Program-made: the position numbers and the translations under genes
DNA from: Phycisphaerae bacterium
GTDB taxonomy: Bacteria > Planctomycetota > Phycisphaerae > Phycisphaerales > UBA1924
Assembly (NCBI GenBank): GCA_030429705.1
Contig: JAUIES010000001.1
Span: 620,001 to 684,000 of the forward strand
Direction: 5' to 3'
Length of the DNA stretch: 64,000 bases
The notes under the pieces: model-generated
The model's database searches: none
The model's input: the letters and a program-made list of their open reading frames with translations, nothing else
Told to the model about the DNA's origin: nothing
Part shown: positions 2,713 to 59,255 of the stretch, piece by piece
Numbering within the stretch: position 1 is the stretch's first letter
How the letters are laid out: every line of letters begins with the position of its first letter

Positions 2713-4053
2713 TCAGGGGAAGATGCCACGAACTTTGTAGACATCACCGATGTGATCGAGTGCGGCTGCAAACGCTGCCGTTCGCAAATCACATTTGTAT
2801 TCATTGCGGAATTTGAGTGTGCGGCGTGCTGCAAGCACCATGTGCCGGTTCAGTTCGCGGTCAACTTGTTCGGCGCTCCAAACGACGGATGACTTGTTCT
2901 GCAGCCATTCGAAGTACGAGACCGTCACGCCACCTGCATTGGCGAGAATCGCTGGGATGATCTCAACACCCTTGGCGACGAGAATGCGGTCGCCGCCTGG
3001 TGTCGAGGGTGCATTTGCGGCCTCGGCCATGACTTTGCAATCAAGCCATTCGGCACGCTGCGGCGTAATCATCTGCTCGAGAGCACCGGGGATGAACACA
3101 TCCACCTTGGTGCGATAAAAGTCTTCCTCGGTGCAATCGTCGGCACCGGCAAAACCCTTGACACCACCGGTCGCTTCGGCGTGCTTGGCGAGTGCATTGC
3201 AGTCGATGCCATTTTCGTTGCGGATGAAACCGGTGTGGTCTGCGACGGCTGTCGTCTTGGCACCCATGTCTTGAAGGATTCGACCGGCCCACGAGTTCAC
3301 ATTGCCAAACCCGAGCAGGCTTGCCGTCATGCCTTGCACGGGAATACCGATGCCGGGGAGCATTTCAGCGAGCACATCGGCCACACCCTGCCCGGTGGCT
3401 TTTTCACGGCCGAGCGAGCCGCCAAACTCGACAGGCTTCCCCGTCACAACGCGAATGCCATCGTTGGCATCTTTGCCTTCATTGGACATCATGTAGGTAT
3501 CAGCGAACCACGCCATGATTTGTGCATTGGTTCCCACATCGGGCGCAGGGATGTCATAGTCGGGCCCGATCTCGTTTGCGATCGCTGAGCAATAACGGCG
3601 GGTGACGCGCTGGAGTTCACCTTCAGAGAGTTCGCGCGTGTTGACTTTGACGCCCCCCTTGCCGCCACCGAAAGGGATGCGAACGAGCGCACACTTCATG
3701 GTCATGAGCAGCGCGAGTGACTTGACATCGTCGAGGTGTACATCCGGGTGGAATCGGAAGCCGCCCTTGTAAGGACCAAGTGCGTTGTTGTGTTGGATGC
3801 GGTACCCCTTGAAGAGTTTGTGGTGCCCGTCGTCCATGCGAACGGGGAAGTGCACCATGATCTCGTTCTTGGGCTGCGCGAGAATGATCTGCACACGGTG
3901 CTGCAGACCGAGCAGATCGCATGCACCAAGCATGACTTCAACTGTTTGCAGGTAGAGATTGTCAGGATCCGTCGGAAAACCGAGTTCATCGCAAATGGGG
4001 TGGTGCTTTCCATTGAGTTCGGCGCTTGACTGATTTTCCGTGGCGGTGCTCAT
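2713..4053 (-). CDS. gdhA: Glutamate dehydrogenase (Glu/Leu/Phe/Val dehydrogenase family)
   Basis: Reversible oxidative deamination of glutamate to 2-oxoglutarate and ammonium, linking nitrogen metabolism to the TCA cycle. The 446-residue protein has the whole family layout. The N-terminal substrate domain carries the substrate lysine near residue 120 (MTMKCAL), the catalytic lysine near 132 in PFGGGKGGVKV, and the aspartate of PAPDVGTN near 172. The C-terminal Rossmann domain has the glycine motif LLGFGNVNSWAG near 247-257. Length is normal. It is the first gene of the minus-strand set with the unknown protein at 1887-2693 and acnA. The upstream intergenic region is shared with the divergent pseudo-receiver gene at 4310. 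Leucine dehydrogenases share the fold but are usually shorter (about 360 residues), so glutamate dehydrogenase is preferred. Cofactor preference cannot be read with certainty. Confidence 0.95.
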   Translation of the reverse strand: MSTATENQSSAELNGKHHPICDELGFPTDPDNLYLQTVEVMLGACDLLGLQHRVQIILAQPKNEIMVHFPVRMDDGHHKLFKGYRIQHNNALGPYKGGFRFHPDVHLDDVKSLALLMTMKCALVRIPFGGGKGGVKVNTRELSEGELQRVTRRYCSAIANEIGPDYDIPAPDVGTNAQIMAWFADTYMMSNEGKDANDGIRVVTGKPVEFGGSLGREKATGQGVADVLAEMLPGIGIPVQGMTASLLGFGNVNSWAGRILQDMGAKTTAVADHTGFIRNENGIDCNALAKHAEATGGVKGFAGADDCTEEDFYRTKVDVFIPGALEQMITPQRAEWLDCKVMAEAANAPSTPGGDRILVAKGVEIIPAILANAGGVTVSYFEWLQNKSSVVWSAEQVDRELNRHMVLAARRTLKFRNEYKCDLRTAAFAAALDHIGDVYKVRGIFP

Positions 4054-49970: not shown

Positions 49971-52913
49971 ATGCACAGCGATCAAGACATTGAAACCCGC
50001 GCAACGCAGATCATCGATCATGCGCAAACCCTCAAACCAGCAGAACGCGATGACTATCTTGAAGCCCAGTATCAGCACGATCCGATCCTTCGCGCACGCG
50101 TTCAGGCAAGACTCGCTCGTCACCCGGCGAGCAAAAACGAATGCCAGAATCCTGATGGCTTGCAATCTGCAATCGCGAACGGCGATTTACCTTCGAGGCC
50201 CTTGCAGCGAGACATGATCGAAGAAGGTACGGCCATCGGGCCGTACACCGTCGAGTGTTTGCTCGGGTCGGGCGGCTTTGGAGCGGTGTACCTGGCGCAG
50301 CAAGAGGAACCGATTCGTCGACAGGTCGCGCTCAAGATCCTCAAAGTCGGCATGGACACCGCGGAGATTGTCCAGCGATTCGAAGCCGAAGAACAAGCAC
50401 TCGCCTTGATGAGCCACCCGGGAATCGCCAGCGTTTTTGATGTTGGCATGACTGAACGAGGTCGGCCTTACTTCGCGATGGAGTATGTGCCCGGTGTCAG
50501 CCTCGGTCGATTCTGCGATCGTGAACGATTGAACACCAACGATCGTGTGAGGTTGTTCATCGATGTGTGCAACGCGATGCAGCACGCTCACCAGAAGGGC
50601 ATCATTCACCGCGACCTCAAGCCGTCAAACATCATGGTCATGATGCAGGATGGACGCCCGCAGCCCAAGATCATCGACTTCGGCATCGCCAAAGCGGTGT
50701 TTTCTCCACTGACCGACCATTCCATGGTGACCGATGCCGGGCACGCGATCGGGACACCCGAATATATGAGCCCCGAGCAGGCGCAGACGAACAGCGATGA
50801 TGTCGACACGCGCGCCGATGTGTACTCACTCGGCATGGTCTTGTATGAACTGTTGACCGGCGCTATGCCGCACACTTTGATGCGCGATCGTCGGCCGAGT
50901 GTGCTCGAACTTCGAGACTGGGTGCTCAACGGCGAAACGATTCGTCTCTCCACGCGGATCGCCATGCTTGGCGATGAGGCTGCCGAACTGGCGGACAAAC
51001 GAAGATCAACACCGACGACGCTGCGCAAGCAATTGCGCGGCGAACTGGAGTGGATCACCCTCAAATCGCTCGAACGCGATCGCAATCGCCGATACGGATC
51101 TGTCTATGAGTTTGGCGCCGATCTGCAACGATACCTCAACGACGAGCCGGTCATTGCAGGTCCACCGACGACAGCCTACCGGGCGCAGAAGTTCATCGCT
51201 CGGCATCGCGGGGGGGTCTTTGCGGGTGTTGCGATGTCGGCAGCCCTGCTCGCCGGAATTGCTATCGCAACGGTTGGTTTCGTTTCAGCGAACGAGGCTG
51301 CCAATGACGCGAGGCGAGCCGAACAGGCGACCAAATCAGCGATGGCGCGAGTCGTGGAAGAACGAACGAATGCCGAGACCGCCCGAATCCTCGCGGAACA
51401 GGACGCAATCCGAGCCCACGAAGTCAGTCGTTTCCTTGAGCGTGTGCTGACATCGGTTGACCCCGGCATCGCCGGGCCGACCGTGCGGATGCTCGATGTC
51501 CTGCAACAGGCAGAGGCCGATCTTGCTCATGACGAGTTTTCTGACCCGATCACCGGAGCCACAGTCCGCGGTGCGATCGGCGAGTCGTACCGAGCGCTCG
51601 CCGAGTACGACGACGCAACCGAGCATCTCAAAGCCAGAGCAACGCAGTTTGAACTGCTCTTCGGACCGGACGATGTGCGAACACTCCAGGCGCGCTTGGC
51701 GGTTGGAGGCAATCTGCGAAGCCTTGGTCACTACGACGAGGCCCGCACCTTACTCGAGTCAGTGCGAAGCGCACTGGAATCACAACAAGGACCGAGCGGA
51801 CCGGACACGCTGACAGCACTTGGTCATCTCGGTCGATTGGAACTGGAAACAGGCAACCTCGAAGCAGCCGAAACACTGTTCCGCGAGGTGCTCGATCGAA
51901 CCATCGCGCTGAACCCTTCACCAGCCGAACTGGCCCGGGCGCGAGCAGACTTTGGCTGGGCGCTGATGGATCAGCACAAACTCGCCGAAGCCGAGCAATA
52001 CTTGCGAATGGCAAGTGACACGCTGCTCGAAGCGGAGGGTCCGACTCACCCCACCACGCTCCGGGTGCGTGATTCACTCGCGGTCACGCTACAGAACCTC
52101 GGGCGGCGCGATGAAGCCATCGAAATCTATGACGAGATTCTCGCGATCCGGCGCGAGCAGATGGGCGAGAGCAATCCGCTCACACTCTGGGCGATGAACA
52201 ACCTGGGCACGGCGCTGAGTGAGACACCAAGTCGTGTGGACGAAGGCCGCGTGATGATGGAACGCGTGCTCGAACTGCAACGCGAACGCTACGGCAATGC
52301 GCACCTGTACTCGATCACGACGATGAACAACCTCGCGTCGATCTACCGCAAACTCGGGCGCAAGGACGAAGCCGAGGTACTGTGGTCCGAAGCAACCACG
52401 CACGGCGAAGCGCTGTGGGGGCCGACACACCCGCGCACACTGGGCACCATCACCAACCGCGCCGGACTGATTTCGGAAATGGGCCGATGGGACGAAGCAC
52501 GCGAACGGTTCGAGTACGCCTTGCCATTGATGGAAAAAACGCTGGGCAAGTCACATGGCATGTGGCTCACCGCCAAGCACGGGCTCGGCGTGACGCTGGT
52601 CCGTATGGAGTTGTTCGACGATGCGCTGGCGTGCTTTGGCGAACTCATGACCGAGGCCGAAGCCGTTCTGCCCGAGGGGCATTGGTATCTGCATCAGTTC
52701 CGCAGTTGGCGCGGGATCGCGCTGACCGGGCTCGAGCGCTATGACGAAGCCGAGACGGTCCTGCGGGCCTCGATGGACGGACTCATTACCCAGTTCGGTC
52801 AGGATCACGACCGATCGCTGGGCGTACGCAGCAAACTCGTCGAGCTCTATGAGATCACCGGCAACGCTGACGCTCTCGCAGCACTGCGGGCGGAATACCC
52901 GGATCCTGAGTAA
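49971..52913 (+). CDS. Ser/Thr protein kinase with transmembrane helix and TPR array
   Basis: A 980-residue Hanks-type kinase of the PknB-TPR kind that is expanded in planctomycetes. After about 85 N-terminal residues comes the kinase domain (about 88-400): the P-loop LLGSGGFGAVYLAQ near 97-110, the ATP lysine in VALKILKVG near 122, the catalytic loop IIHRDLKPSNIMVM near 212-225, DFGIAKA near 235, and GTPEYMSPEQ in the activation segment. One transmembrane helix follows (about 413-437, GVFAGVAMSAALLAGIAIATVGFV). The rest is an array of about ten TPR/TPR_10-like repeats (e.g. GRRDEAIEIYDEILAIRREQMG) that would lie outside the cytoplasm. ATG 49971 has GAGGAG upstream. The target is unknown. Confidence 0.95.
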   Translation: MHSDQDIETRATQIIDHAQTLKPAERDDYLEAQYQHDPILRARVQARLARHPASKNECQNPDGLQSAIANGDLPSRPLQRDMIEEGTAIGPYTVECLLGSGGFGAVYLAQQEEPIRRQVALKILKVGMDTAEIVQRFEAEEQALALMSHPGIASVFDVGMTERGRPYFAMEYVPGVSLGRFCDRERLNTNDRVRLFIDVCNAMQHAHQKGIIHRDLKPSNIMVMMQDGRPQPKIIDFGIAKAVFSPLTDHSMVTDAGHAIGTPEYMSPEQAQTNSDDVDTRADVYSLGMVLYELLTGAMPHTLMRDRRPSVLELRDWVLNGETIRLSTRIAMLGDEAAELADKRRSTPTTLRKQLRGELEWITLKSLERDRNRRYGSVYEFGADLQRYLNDEPVIAGPPTTAYRAQKFIARHRGGVFAGVAMSAALLAGIAIATVGFVSANEAANDARRAEQATKSAMARVVEERTNAETARILAEQDAIRAHEVSRFLERVLTSVDPGIAGPTVRMLDVLQQAEADLAHDEFSDPITGATVRGAIGESYRALAEYDDATEHLKARATQFELLFGPDDVRTLQARLAVGGNLRSLGHYDEARTLLESVRSALESQQGPSGPDTLTALGHLGRLELETGNLEAAETLFREVLDRTIALNPSPAELARARADFGWALMDQHKLAEAEQYLRMASDTLLEAEGPTHPTTLRVRDSLAVTLQNLGRRDEAIEIYDEILAIRREQMGESNPLTLWAMNNLGTALSETPSRVDEGRVMMERVLELQRERYGNAHLYSITTMNNLASIYRKLGRKDEAEVLWSEATTHGEALWGPTHPRTLGTITNRAGLISEMGRWDEARERFEYALPLMEKTLGKSHGMWLTAKHGLGVTLVRMELFDDALACFGELMTEAEAVLPEGHWYLHQFRSWRGIALTGLERYDEAETVLRASMDGLITQFGQDHDRSLGVRSKLVELYEITGNADALAALRAEYPDPE

Positions 52914-52951
52914 CGCCGGGTTGCACCGTCAAATGTGACACTTTTGCATTA

Positions 52952-53027
52952 AACGAGCCCCGACCGTGAGGGAGGGGGCGATGCGTGCACGAACGCCTGG
53001 CCCCCTCCCTCACGGTCGGGGCTCGTT
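52952..53027. repeat. Large perfect inverted repeat, QRAPTVREG-type palindromic element
   Basis: Two arms, 52952-52979 and 53000-53027, are perfect reverse complements over 28 bases. The right arm core reads CCCTCCCTCACGGTCGGGGC and ends GCTCGTT followed by GAG. The 20-base loop contains a further GCGT/ACGC stem. The element lies between the convergent kinase and glyS genes and would form a very stable RNA hairpin on either strand, so it may also stop transcription. The same arm sequence recurs at 55177-55203 and, less exactly, at 55216-55242 inside ispH, marking it as a dispersed repeat. Confidence 0.93.
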
Positions 53028-53044
53028 GAGGCTTGTTTTCACAC

Positions 53045-54772
53045 TCACACGCCGAGTTTGCCCGCCAGAAAGTCCCCCACCTGGTCGATCGCAAGGCGGC
53101 TCTGCTCGAGCGTGTCGCGATCGCGGACAGTGACGGTCTGGTCGGTCAGGGTTTCGCTATCAATGGTGAAGCAGAACGGGCAGCCGGCTTCGTCCATACG
53201 GGCGTAGCGCTTGCCGATCGACTGCTTCTCGTCATATTCGATCGTGCCGAGGTGCCCGAAGCGTTTACGCAGTTCCGCGAACAATGGCTCGGCGATCTCG
53301 GGCATGCCGTCCTTCTTGACCAACGGAAACACCGCTGCCTTGATCGGCGAAATACGCGGGTGGAACTTCATGTAGACGCCCGACGCCCGGTCAGGATCAG
53401 GCGTGTATGCCTCGCACAGGATCGCGAGCACGCCGCGATCGAGGCCGGCGGATGGCTCGATGACATGGGGCAGATACCACTCGCCCTTGGGTTGGCCGTT
53501 CTTTGCCAGTTCGCCCCGGGTCTTGTCGTGATACTCCATCTTCTTCTTGGAGTGTTCCTGATGCTGCTTCAGGTCGAAATCAGTTCGATCCGCGATGCCC
53601 TCGAGTTCGCCATAGCCGGGCGCGGTGAACGGGAACTTGTATTCGATATCGCTCGTCCCCGCCCCTTCCTTGGCGTAGTGGGCGAGTTCGCCCTCGTCGT
53701 GCTCACGGAGGATGAGATTTTCGCCTTCGAGCCCGATCCCCTGCCACCACGCCATGCGCCAATCGCGCCAGAAGACATACCACGCCTTCGAATCATCGGG
53801 ATGGCAGAAAAACTCGATTTCCATCTGCTCGAACTCGCGGCTACGGAAGGTGAAGTTGCGAGGCGTGACCTCGTTGCGGAAAGCCTTGCCGGTCTGGGCG
53901 ATGCCGAAGGGGAGCGCGACGCGCGTCGAGTCGACGACATTCTTAAAGTTGATGAAGATGCCCTGGGCGGTCTCGGGGCGGAGGTAGACTTTGTTGTCTT
54001 CATTGAAGACGGCACCGGTAAATGTATGATTCATTAGGTTGAAAGCACGAGGTTCCGACAAACCACCGATTTTACCTGTGAAAGGTGAGGGGACTAGATC
54101 AGGATAAAACCTGAGCGCAAGGTTTGTAGTAGTAATCAATGCTTTCTCGGGTCCTTTCCCGAAATCAGCCATCACGAGCACTCCGAACTGATAACCCTCC
54201 GAATATCCAGTCTTCCCGATCGATTTGATCCCGACAATCTTCTGCAGAGATTTGTCCGATTCCAGTAAAGAGACGGCCTCATCTGGTCCGGAGGCGATGA
54301 CCGTCGCATTTGGTATGGCCACTTCGGAGTGCATTTTGAGGGTTGGTTCGCCACCGGCGGTGTCGATCGTGTCAGTGGTTCGCTTGAGCGGATCGGAATA
54401 TCGATAGATTCCTTGAAGGTGATCCGCGCGAAATCTTCGACCATCGGGTGTCGATTTGTCTGTAACCATCGGATCGTTGAACCCGCCGACATGCCCCGAC
54501 GCTTCCCACACCTTCGGGTTTTGGATGATGCATGAATCCAGCGGCACGATCTCGACGGGCTTGCCATCCGGGCCCATCTGTCCGCCCGCGCCGAGCATGA
54601 CCACATCGGTCCACCACGCATCGCGGAGGTTTTTCTTGAGTTGAGCGCCGAGCGGGCCGTAGTCCCAGAAGCCGTTGATCCCGCCGTAGATTTCGGATGC
54701 CTGAAAGATGAACCCGCGTCTTTTGCACAGGGCCATGATGTCGTCCATTGATTTCGTCGCGTTGTCCGCCAT
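53045..54772 (-). CDS. glyS: Glycyl-tRNA synthetase, single-chain (alpha2) type
   Basis: Class II synthetase charging tRNA-Gly. The 575-residue protein starts MDDIMALCKRRGFIFQASEIYGGINGFWDYGPLGAQLKKNL, contains motif 2/3 landmarks YLRPETAQGIFINFKNV, PFGIAQTGKAFRNEVTPRNFTFRSREFEQMEIEFF and VIEPSAGLDRGVLAILCEAY, and ends with the anticodon-binding domain (YARMDEAGCPFCFTIDSETLTDQTVTVRDRDTLEQ). The cysteines of the usual zinc-like insert around the RADHL motif are missing. In their place is a segment of over 100 residues (about 125-255) whose codons are noticeably less GC-rich than the rest. ispH starts about 1.2 kb upstream on the same strand, with its 3' end close by (78 bases). Confidence 0.95.
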   Translation of the reverse strand: MADNATKSMDDIMALCKRRGFIFQASEIYGGINGFWDYGPLGAQLKKNLRDAWWTDVVMLGAGGQMGPDGKPVEIVPLDSCIIQNPKVWEASGHVGGFNDPMVTDKSTPDGRRFRADHLQGIYRYSDPLKRTTDTIDTAGGEPTLKMHSEVAIPNATVIASGPDEAVSLLESDKSLQKIVGIKSIGKTGYSEGYQFGVLVMADFGKGPEKALITTTNLALRFYPDLVPSPFTGKIGGLSEPRAFNLMNHTFTGAVFNEDNKVYLRPETAQGIFINFKNVVDSTRVALPFGIAQTGKAFRNEVTPRNFTFRSREFEQMEIEFFCHPDDSKAWYVFWRDWRMAWWQGIGLEGENLILREHDEGELAHYAKEGAGTSDIEYKFPFTAPGYGELEGIADRTDFDLKQHQEHSKKKMEYHDKTRGELAKNGQPKGEWYLPHVIEPSAGLDRGVLAILCEAYTPDPDRASGVYMKFHPRISPIKAAVFPLVKKDGMPEIAEPLFAELRKRFGHLGTIEYDEKQSIGKRYARMDEAGCPFCFTIDSETLTDQTVTVRDRDTLEQSRLAIDQVGDFLAGKLGV

Positions 54773-54850: not shown

Positions 54851-56017
54851 TCACTGGTCCGACAGCCCCTCGATCGTGAGCGGCACCGCGTCGCGGCCAT
54901 AGGTCGCTTTGACGATGCTCGGACTCTCGACACGGATGCGGCGGGCTTCGGGGTCGATGCCGCGCTCGCGCATCGCCCGCTTGAGCGTCACCGGCAGCCC
55001 AAACTCGACGGCTTCTTCGATCACATCGCCCGTGAACAACTCGGCGTGGTGCTCATCGACGAGCAGACGGCAGATCTCGGCGACGAGGTCTTCGGGAGCG
55101 CTAGCACCAGCGGTGAGCAGGATGGTCTGGGTGGGTTCCACGCTCGCGCTTCGGGCTTGTTGAGATGTTGAAGAAACCCCCTCCCTCACGGTCGGGGCTC
55201 GTTGAGGCGTGGGAGACCCCTCCCTTACGGCTGGGGCTCGTTGAGACGAACCGATGAACCACGCCGGGTCAATCTGGCTGGCATCGTCGATCAGTTTGGC
55301 CCGCGTCCCGACATTTTCAGCGATCTCGGTCAGCCGTTGCGAGTTACTCGAGTTGGTCGAGCCGACCACCAGCACCAGGTCGCACTGGGGTGCGAGCGTG
55401 CGGACCGCGTGCTGCCGGTTGGTGGTCGCATAGCAGATGTCTTCACTGGGGGGGGCCTTGATGGCTGGAAACGCCTGCCGAAGGGCGTCGATGATCACGC
55501 CCGCGTCGTCGGTCGAGAGCGTGGTCTGAGTGAGATAGACAAGTCGGCTCGGGTCGTCGATTGTGAGGCCCGCAATATCCTCGGGCGATTCGACCACCTG
55601 GATCGCGCCAGGTGCCTCACCTTGTGTGCCGATGACTTCCTGATGATCGCGGTGCCCCACCAGCAGGATCTGGTACCCCTGCCGGGCGTACCGAATGGCT
55701 TCCGAATGCACCTTGGTCACGAGCGGGCAGGTCGCATCAATCGCGGTCAGGCCTCGTGCCTCGGCTGCCTGGCGCACAGCGGGGCTGATGCCATGGGCGC
55801 TGAACACCACAATCGCTCCCGGGGGCACCTCGTCGATGGATTCGACAAACACCACGCCTCGGTCCTTGAACCGGGTGACGACATGCTTGTTGTGCACGAT
55901 TTCGTGATAGACATAGATCGTCTGGCCGGTGAACACATCGAGAACCTGGTCCACCACATCGATCGCCATGCGAACGCCGGCACAAAAACCCCGTGGATTG
56001 ACCAGAATGACCTGCAT
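54851..56017 (-). CDS. ispH: 4-hydroxy-3-methylbut-2-enyl diphosphate reductase with repeat insertion
   Basis: Last enzyme of the MEP isoprenoid pathway, a 4Fe-4S reductase (also LytB). The 388-residue protein has the three cluster cysteines in NPRGFCAGV (residue 12), DATCPLVTKV and EDICYATTNRQ. It also has VYHEIVHNKHVV, VFSAHGISPAV, VVGSTNSSNSQRL and the late LLTAGASAPEDL. The start at 56017 gives the standard N-terminus MQVILVNPRGFCAGV. It is about 70 residues longer than usual: an insert of about 32 residues (near 259-290, containing QRAPAVREG and QRAPTVREG) lies just before the LLTAGAS strand, and there is a C-terminal tail of about 40. The insert is the in-frame translation of the palindromic repeat found at 52952-53027. 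Confidence 0.95.
   Translation of the reverse strand: MQVILVNPRGFCAGVRMAIDVVDQVLDVFTGQTIYVYHEIVHNKHVVTRFKDRGVVFVESIDEVPPGAIVVFSAHGISPAVRQAAEARGLTAIDATCPLVTKVHSEAIRYARQGYQILLVGHRDHQEVIGTQGEAPGAIQVVESPEDIAGLTIDDPSRLVYLTQTTLSTDDAGVIIDALRQAFPAIKAPPSEDICYATTNRQHAVRTLAPQCDLVLVVGSTNSSNSQRLTEIAENVGTRAKLIDDASQIDPAWFIGSSQRAPAVREGSPTPQRAPTVREGVSSTSQQARSASVEPTQTILLTAGASAPEDLVAEICRLLVDEHHAELFTGDVIEEAVEFGLPVTLKRAMRERGIDPEARRIRVESPSIVKATYGRDAVPLTIEGLSDQ
55177..55203. repeat. Copy of the palindromic-element arm inside ispH (exact)
   Basis: These 27 bases are identical to the right arm of the hairpin at 53001-53027 and continue identically for several more bases (GAGGC). On the ispH coding strand they read QRAPTVREG in frame. 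Confidence 0.93.
55216..55242. repeat. Second, diverged copy of the element arm inside ispH
   Basis: Aligned to the copy at 55177 with a 39-base (13-codon) offset; four of 27 bases differ, and GAG follows as in the other copies. It encodes QRAPAVREG in ispH. The multiple-of-three spacing keeps the reading frame open. Confidence 0.88.
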
Positions 56018-56159
56018 CGTGTGCTCCGTGAACCGAGCCTGTGGTCCGAGAAGTGCCGCCCTTTGCATCGATCCACGCTGTCCCGCTTGGCGCGTGGCCT
56101 TGCAAACCCTACGCTGATAGGACCGCCCCGGATCGTAGGGGATCGGGAAGGAGATACCG

Positions 56160-57296
56160 ATGGTATTCAGGCCTGCGCTTTCTGCCGTGTTGTGCTCGAT
56201 GGTGATACTCGCGTCATGCGAGAAGAAACCCGAAACGCCGGACGGCGACAACACCGGATCAAACCTCCCGGCGAACAACCCGGACCCCGCACTTGGCACG
56301 AATACGCCTGAAGATCCGCCCACGGTTGAGATCGACCAGAGCGACTTCATCCGCTTTGGCGTGAAAAAAGCCCCGCCGATCGGAGCCGGGCTCATTCGCG
56401 TTGCGTCGTACAACATCGAGAATCTCTTTGATGACATCGACGATCCGACGCTAAGCGATCGATACGAAGACATCGACGACACCAAGCCGATCCACGAACT
56501 CGAAGGCGTCTCGAAAGCGATCCATGACCTCGATGCCGATGTACTCGCAGTGCAGGAGGTCGAATCGCTCGACGCGCTCCTGGCGTTCCGCGACGAGTAT
56601 CTCTCTGATATGGGCTACCAGCATGTGGTGTCACTCGATGCGGGTGACGAACGCGGCATCGAACAGGCTGTCCTCAGCCGATTCCCGGTCATCGAGACTG
56701 AGCAATGGGTGCACGGCGACCTCGGCGGGACACACCCCGAGTTGTACGGCTCGCAGCCGAACTGGCACGCGGGCAAGCCGATTGTGTTCCATCGTTCGCC
56801 ATTGATGGTGACGGTCGAGGTGCCCGCAGCCGCAACCGGAGGCACGCCCTACCACCTGTCACTGATCGTCCTGCATCACAAGTCCGGGCAGCACTCCGGG
56901 TACTGGCGTGAACGCGAAGCGGCTGGTGTGATGGAGATCGTCGAAGCGTACAAGCACGCCGACCCAAGTCGAAACCTGCTCGTGCTCGGCGATTTCAACG
57001 CACTCACGACCGACGCAAGTGTGCAGACCTATCTGAACGGCGGGCTGCGCGACGTGTTCGCGGATCGCACCGGTGATGAGATCGTCACGCATTCGTCCGG
57101 CCGACGGATCGACCTGATCCTGGCGAATGAAGCAGCGATGGGCGAGATCCGCCTCGACTCGGCGTTTGTCCTCGGGACAACCGCTGCTCCGGAGGGTGTC
57201 AATTGGGACGATGCTCGACTTCTTCCCGGGTATGGGTCAGACCATTATCCGGTGGCAGTGGATATCGATCCCAAGGAACGCCCGACGGGCGGCTGA
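56160..57296 (+). CDS. Endonuclease/exonuclease/phosphatase-family lipoprotein
   Basis: A 378-residue predicted lipoprotein: signal peptide with lipobox LASC (cysteine near residue 20), then a Pro/Asn/Asp-rich linker to about residue 75. The EEP-fold hydrolase follows: IRVASYNIENLFDD, DADVLAVQEVES (metal-binding glutamate), LHHKSGQ, NLLVLGDFNALTTD (catalytic Asp/Asn) and YGSDHYPVAVDI (catalytic histidine). This fold covers nucleases, phosphodiesterases and phosphatases. Extracellular nuclease is a reasonable guess because a lipoprotein lies outside the cytoplasm, but the substrate is unknown. AAGGAG seven bases before the ATG supports the start. It is divergent from ispH with about 140 bases between. 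Confidence 0.9.
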   Translation: MVFRPALSAVLCSMVILASCEKKPETPDGDNTGSNLPANNPDPALGTNTPEDPPTVEIDQSDFIRFGVKKAPPIGAGLIRVASYNIENLFDDIDDPTLSDRYEDIDDTKPIHELEGVSKAIHDLDADVLAVQEVESLDALLAFRDEYLSDMGYQHVVSLDAGDERGIEQAVLSRFPVIETEQWVHGDLGGTHPELYGSQPNWHAGKPIVFHRSPLMVTVEVPAAATGGTPYHLSLIVLHHKSGQHSGYWREREAAGVMEIVEAYKHADPSRNLLVLGDFNALTTDASVQTYLNGGLRDVFADRTGDEIVTHSSGRRIDLILANEAAMGEIRLDSAFVLGTTAAPEGVNWDDARLLPGYGSDHYPVAVDIDPKERPTGG

Positions 57297-59070: not shown

Positions 59071-59255
59071 TTTTTTGATTGGTTGCACTGACTCAGGTCA
59101 GGATAGAGAAGCCTACACTTGCAGCCCGCCAGACATATGACGCTGGGGCGTTCCGAAGGCGGGTCGGACGCTCCTTAACTCGGGTATGAACCCAAAGTGC
59201 ACGCGATGAACTTTTGGGAGCCGCGTGCTCCCTCGCGTGCGATTCGGGTTCGTGC

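Follow-up and report, generated by a model that had tools for sequence, protein, structure and literature searches.

Between the convergent genes for a Ser/Thr kinase and glycine--tRNA ligase (glyS) of a Phycisphaerae bacterium lies a hairpin with perfect arms of 28 bases. The question is what kind of element this is and what put it there. We followed it through the surrounding stretch of 64,000 nucleotides (the window), the host genome and genomes of relatives. The hairpin is very probably a REPIN-like doublet of a 26-nt repeat that belongs with the TnpA-Y1 class 3 elements.

The hairpin and its repeat unit

Sequence and ORF map agree with the initial annotation that the arms match without mismatch between convergent genes (Table 1). 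The arms can be extended to 35 nt at 94%, the loop then being 6 nt. As an entity the hairpin described initially is real, with the nuance that the repeating entity is a smaller imperfect hairpin unit within each arm. This unit, 26 nt long, reads AACGA-GCCCC-GA-CC-GTGA-GG-GA-GGGG and folds alone, as a foot (AACGA) followed by a small imperfect hairpin with a tandem G.A mismatch and a GNNA loop. The window hairpin is a head-out (REPIN-like) doublet of it, and pairing continues perfectly for 2 nt more per side beyond the units, which gives the 28-nt arms. As RNA, the 91-nt stretch has a folding energy of -79.8 kcal/mol (z -12.0), and as DNA one of -45.9 kcal/mol (z -10.7); 0 of 200 shuffles come as low in either case. 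No T-run follows the stem, as had been noted, and 0 intrinsic-terminator-like sites were found in 52700-53300; the matches of an Rfam scan of the window were three tRNAs only. The host is a Phycisphaerales MAG, and the closest named relatives of glyS are also from Phycisphaerales MAGs, at up to 87% identity.

Table 1. Positions in the window of the hairpin, its units, the adjoining genes and further copies of the unit
Feature	Position	Strand	Remark
Ser/Thr kinase with TPR repeats	49971..52913	+	stop 38 nt before doublet
Left arm, AACGAGCCCCGACCGTGAGGGAGGGGGC	52952-52979		28 nt, perfect
Left unit of doublet	52952..52977	+	foot AACGA outward
Spacer between both 26-nt units	52978..53001	none	24 nt
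Right arm, exact reverse complement of left arm	53000-53027		20-nt loop between 28-nt arms
Right unit of doublet	53002..53027	-	same sequence as left unit, foot outward
glyS, glycine--tRNA ligase	53045..54772	-	convergent with kinase gene, stop 17 nt from doublet
ispH ORF (TIGR00216)	54851..56485	-	host of in-frame insertion at about aa 412-453
ispH third unit	55136..55161	-	decayed, second subfamily
ispH unit	55178..55203	-	in-frame reading QRAPTVREG
ispH unit	55217..55242	-	in-frame reading QRAPAVREG
Single unit	59229..59254	-	diverged, second subfamily

The 18-nt core of the hairpin arm matches four times in the window, where 0.11 matches would be expected. In the host genome (G000; assembly of 3.49 Mb in 8 contigs, 96% complete) this core has 29 copies at up to 2 mismatches (0 for the reversed control), and a degenerate unit pattern at up to 2 mismatches finds 55 units (2 for the reversed pattern). 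The idea of a REP-like element, raised initially, is supported by about 55 dispersed units, by head-out doublets, by presence and absence among relatives and by transposases of relatives that have this repeat in their flanks. Two subfamilies are seen, GCCCC-GA-CC-GTGA-GG-GA-GGGG and GCCC-GAA-GC-GCAA-GC-GA-GGG. Of the 25 host units listed, 15 have an inner stem of CC (once CT) opposite GG, and 10 one of GC (or a TC variant) opposite GC. In two copies in the genome, both sides of the outer pair are altered (CCGC/GCGG).

A pattern that sets no letters for the loop gave 112 units from three genomes (3 of 115 matches, all from G010 and of another length, were dropped). A GNNA loop is present in 107 of them, and in 25 of these 107 loop position 3 is a pyrimidine; these copies, like those in the stem counts, are related by descent and hence are non-independent events. 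A GNRA RNA loop would exclude a pyrimidine at position 3, and cGNNAg is a stable DNA tetraloop. Since the loop is GNNA and not GNRA, the unit may be shaped as single-stranded DNA and not as RNA. Literature searches on GNNA DNA loops gave nothing usable, and one for the sequence of the repeat gave 0 papers.

Arrangement was analysed on 52 host units with at most 6/26 mismatches. Among pairs within 70 nt there are 10 head-out (one unit enters two of these), 0 head-in and 11 tandem. Perfect arms had initially been read as a sign of recent formation or active maintenance. This is weakly supported: 2 of 10 doublets, the window doublet among them, have identical units, and units inside doublets differ at a mean of 4.2/26 positions and re-paired units at 4.07 (permutation P 0.65). 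As the two arms of a doublet resemble each other no more than chance would give, active maintenance is not supported, and on the same comparison we rejected concerted arms, whose identity would be kept by hairpin repair or copying.

Class 3 transposases in relatives and RAYT genes in the host

The repeats that flank TnpA-Y1 class 3 genes have been described in a passage of a 2018 paper (PMC6006769) as atypical hairpins around Y1 transposases with the signatures NHVH, W[TA] and Y----Q; the same passage gives Planctomycetes among the hosts, a possible multicopy state and a foot CnGA. Our first screen took 58 Y1 loci (L101-L158) from 11 genomes searched with NF047646 and applied a strict unit pattern to them. 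The pattern matched at 5 of the 58, with units on both sides at three (L147, L148, L157) and on one side at L123 and L155. The three two-sided loci define a divergent Y1/HuH transposase clade, for which a search of 101 genomes gave a match in 55; the relatives searched are all from other genera than the host. A looser pattern, ACGAGCCSN{11,14}GAGSG, gave whole-genome counts that for the majority of the 101 genomes lie too near those of its reversed form, and is unfit for copy numbers.

The flanks of the 30 class 3 loci returned were analysed by regular expression and de novo, with four contig-edge loci handled separately. Inverted hairpins of the general unit kind stand on both sides at 24 of the 30, a count that takes in loci with more loosely related units (L162, L168, L175, L188) and two loci judged by regular-expression hits (L160, L187); the six without a matching hairpin pair are L174, L182, L183, L184, L185 and L186. 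In G035, CCGAGCCCCGACCGTGAGGGAGGG adjoins the class 3 gene, and its core equals the window core letter for letter. Units of the form ACGAGCCGCG[AC]CCGT...AGCGG, which differs from the window unit by a single compensating change of C:G to G:C, occur at seven loci (L163, L167, L171, L173, L178, L179, L180). The foot beside class 3 genes is CCGA in G035, G027 and G059 and ACGA in seven other loci. The window foot is also ACGA, against the published CnGA, which looks too narrow because ACGA adjoins class 3 genes in those seven loci. Beside the class 3 gene of G035 (C86, L148 / L160), a tandem array at 775-1436 joins two different unit types into heterodoublets that recur about every 170 nt.

All 21 intact class 3 proteins aligned match Pfam Y1_Tnp and carry HuH, W and Y----Q signatures, with H100, H102, W139, Y160 and Q165 invariant and T, A or S following the W. 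Among solved structures, weak sequence matches to them fall mainly on small transposases (the best being 2f4f, E 0.0058), and several class 3 genes of relatives have in-frame stops. By these sequence features the clade fits the published TnpA-Y1 class 3.

The host genome gave no match in a class 3 search at E<=0.001, nor at E<=10, with a 3-row or a 21-row query; the positive genomes G052 and G074 score about 241 bits with the 21-row query. A class 3 gene may lie in the 4% missing from the assembly. G003, with 10 units, has no class 3 match either. G009 has 56 units, and its best class 3-like gene (L314) is flanked by another palindrome; this palindrome (GCGAGCCGGGGCG..., on C25) is unlike the 56-copy family of that genome. 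Since no class 3 gene was found in the host, the repeat is linked to class 3 through relatives only.

A REP-associated tyrosine transposase (RAYT) gene, suggested initially as a partner, is in fact present twice. The two Y1_Tnp genes of the host are both RAYTs above the NCBIfam cut-off (NF047646), of class 2, and both sit between their own inverted repeats, which are unrelated to the window unit; the cognate class 3 enzyme was not found. Around one (L062; G000 C4, about 1.845 Mb) these are 41-nt perfect inverted repeats (2480-2520 and 3211-3251). This gene is placed between repeated ORFs, presumably Rhs/YD-like from their appearance, and pieces similar to its 41-nt repeat come after class 3-type units in L014 and L022. 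The other (L063) has 85-nt inverted repeats of 84% (2908-2992 and 3707-3791), with more direct copies nearby. The RAYT1 repeat was searched for in the window and not found. A RAYT as the evident cognate was rejected on these other inverted repeats. That one of the two class 2 RAYTs moved the family in trans is unlikely: their presence, and a class 3 gene not being found, speak for it, but their repeats are unrelated and the class 3 link is specific, with all the two-sided units of the 58-locus screen at class 3 loci. As the class 3 gene was not found and both RAYTs go with unrelated repeats, we therefore regard the family as orphan class 3-type REP elements.

Copies behind stop codons and inside enzyme genes

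On a crude longest-ORF map of the 52 units, 35 are intergenic (19 with convergent, 14 with co-oriented and 2 with divergent neighbours) and 17 lie in ORFs. Ten of the latter are in five recognised core genes; the other seven are in ORFs of no assigned identity, and two of these that were scanned had no Pfam match. The excess of convergent over divergent neighbours would also suit a bidirectional 3'-end element, in which the hairpin ends or protects the kinase and glyS mRNAs and the family is kept for that. The convergent position close to both stops and the highly stable RNA fold point the same way, but there is neither a T-run nor a terminator-like site, numerous units are single, 17 of the 52 mapped are in called ORFs, in relatives the unit is not conserved after glyS, and the purging of harmful insertions would by itself lead to the same distribution. 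We consider such an element quite unlikely, and the bidirectional terminator proposed initially is not supported as the main explanation, there being no T-run and many copies that are single or in genes. A secondary effect of the hairpin on mRNA stability is possible.

The region 3' of glyS was examined at 27 Phycisphaerales-type loci (of 80 relative loci), of which 26 were readable, and a unit is found behind glyS at one. At this locus (L202, of Phycisphaerales bacterium NORP244) one unit of the sister type follows the glyS stop directly (just behind 1614). It hints at repeated use of that place and is no empty-site proof. Gene order 3' of glyS differs among relatives, and when the 27 loci were searched by tblastn for the kinase and for IspH, neither gave a match. 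Because gene order there is not conserved, ispH and purB were used for the empty-site comparison.

That the arm sequence also occurs within ispH, as annotated initially, holds for its 18-nt core, which is found at 55179-55196 with 0 mismatches, and again at 55218-55235 with 3. An ispH insertion of about 40 residues (about 55130-55249) consists nearly wholly of the three tandem units. It is missing in 24 of 24 relatives, and in the IspH of solved structure, likewise without it, the chain continues from 266 to 270. In purB the doublet falls within the stretch 197-242, which the solved enzyme lacks, and the insert is missing in 5 of 6 relatives read. In G013 (L328 1747), the best match over the C-terminal part of PurB, the same place holds an insert of lesser length, in which there is a decayed unit (5 mismatches); it may go back to an older insertion common to both genomes or to a second event. 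PurB has a second long variable stretch (aa 418-490; L070 2092-4323), of differing length among relatives, in which no unit was found. The carB unit coincides with a 12-residue insertion, and the lipA unit is at an alignment break (275-307). A doublet in top6B is at another break (271-327), with a third unit in the C-terminal part, beyond the alignment. The product of top6B (L066 1317-3578), DNA topoisomerase VI subunit B, is found mostly in archaea but is encoded here in a bacterial genome.

Some REP clusters are binding sites for gyrase, nucleoid or other host proteins, and the family might be such a site, spread by recombination and not by transposition. This precedent is set against the in-frame insertions into enzymes, which are hard to explain in that way, and against the flanking of class 3 genes and the foot-plus-hairpin anatomy, which would be unexpected. 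We judge a host-factor site very improbable, and the nucleoid-protein site considered initially is not supported as the main explanation for a family with many copies single or inside genes.

Under the class 3 reading, a HuH transposase of class 3 would have recognised the foot and hairpin of the unit while the DNA was in single-stranded form, for instance at replication forks, and would have moved doublets or single units to new places. Copies would have survived mostly just 3' of stop codons, or within genes when in frame at a tolerant position. Mobility and recognition of the unit as a single strand we infer from the family, and single-stranded transposition and the enzyme responsible would follow the same model. 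The class 3 enzyme, found in relatives only, probably spreads such repeats; in this genome movement would have stopped or would depend on enzyme supplied in trans. A wider reading is tentative, and we rather doubt it: an orphan class 3-type REPIN population, its unit shaped as single-stranded DNA, may persist for longer than its transposase and go on altering the proteome, with in-frame insertions in at least five core enzymes (IspH, PurB, CarB, LipA and Top6B).

Relation to described repeats

A literature search for class 3 TnpA-Y1 elements found one short paragraph in one paper. The likeness to the repeats in that paragraph (PMC6006769) lies in hairpins that flank class 3 genes, here in relatives only; the foot differs, no class 3 gene was found here, and the doublets and in-gene copies seen here are not mentioned in its class 3 passages. 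Like REPINs, as the relevant parts of PMC3116915 present them, the family forms inverted doublets of a short palindrome, dispersed and mostly extragenic, but it has no GTAG/GTGG foot and, in this genome, no cognate RAYT adjoining any copy. For TnpAREP, assays of binding, cleavage and strand transfer have been done (PMC8266576). With GTAG and CGTC REPs, as given in part of PMC3733652, it shares small tagged palindromes behind stop codons and in reading frames. The CGTC families too are described there without a dedicated transposase; the tag here is different, and a transposase does exist in relatives of this host. Rickettsia palindromic elements, treated in the same source, are also palindromic repeats inserted into protein genes; host and length differ, and the likeness is one of description.

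The REP-like element proposed initially is thus right in kind, and the family would behave like a REPIN, although its foot ACGA and its missing partner set it apart from the classical GTAG REPs. We place it among the class 3-associated repeats, as an orphan member that forms doublets; the kind is already known, if scarcely described, and the mechanism is not new. New for class 3 elements is the repeat anatomy (foot, tandem G.A, GNNA loop and head-out doublets), together with the occurrence of repeats where the enzyme was not found and in-frame insertion into core enzymes. The family offers a testable case of how small elements of single-stranded DNA may spread, become orphans and lengthen proteins by new peptide segments. 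Sister-type units are also seen on two contigs listed as viral in IMG/VR (L326 5456-5535 and L327 6400-6424), one of them as a full doublet.
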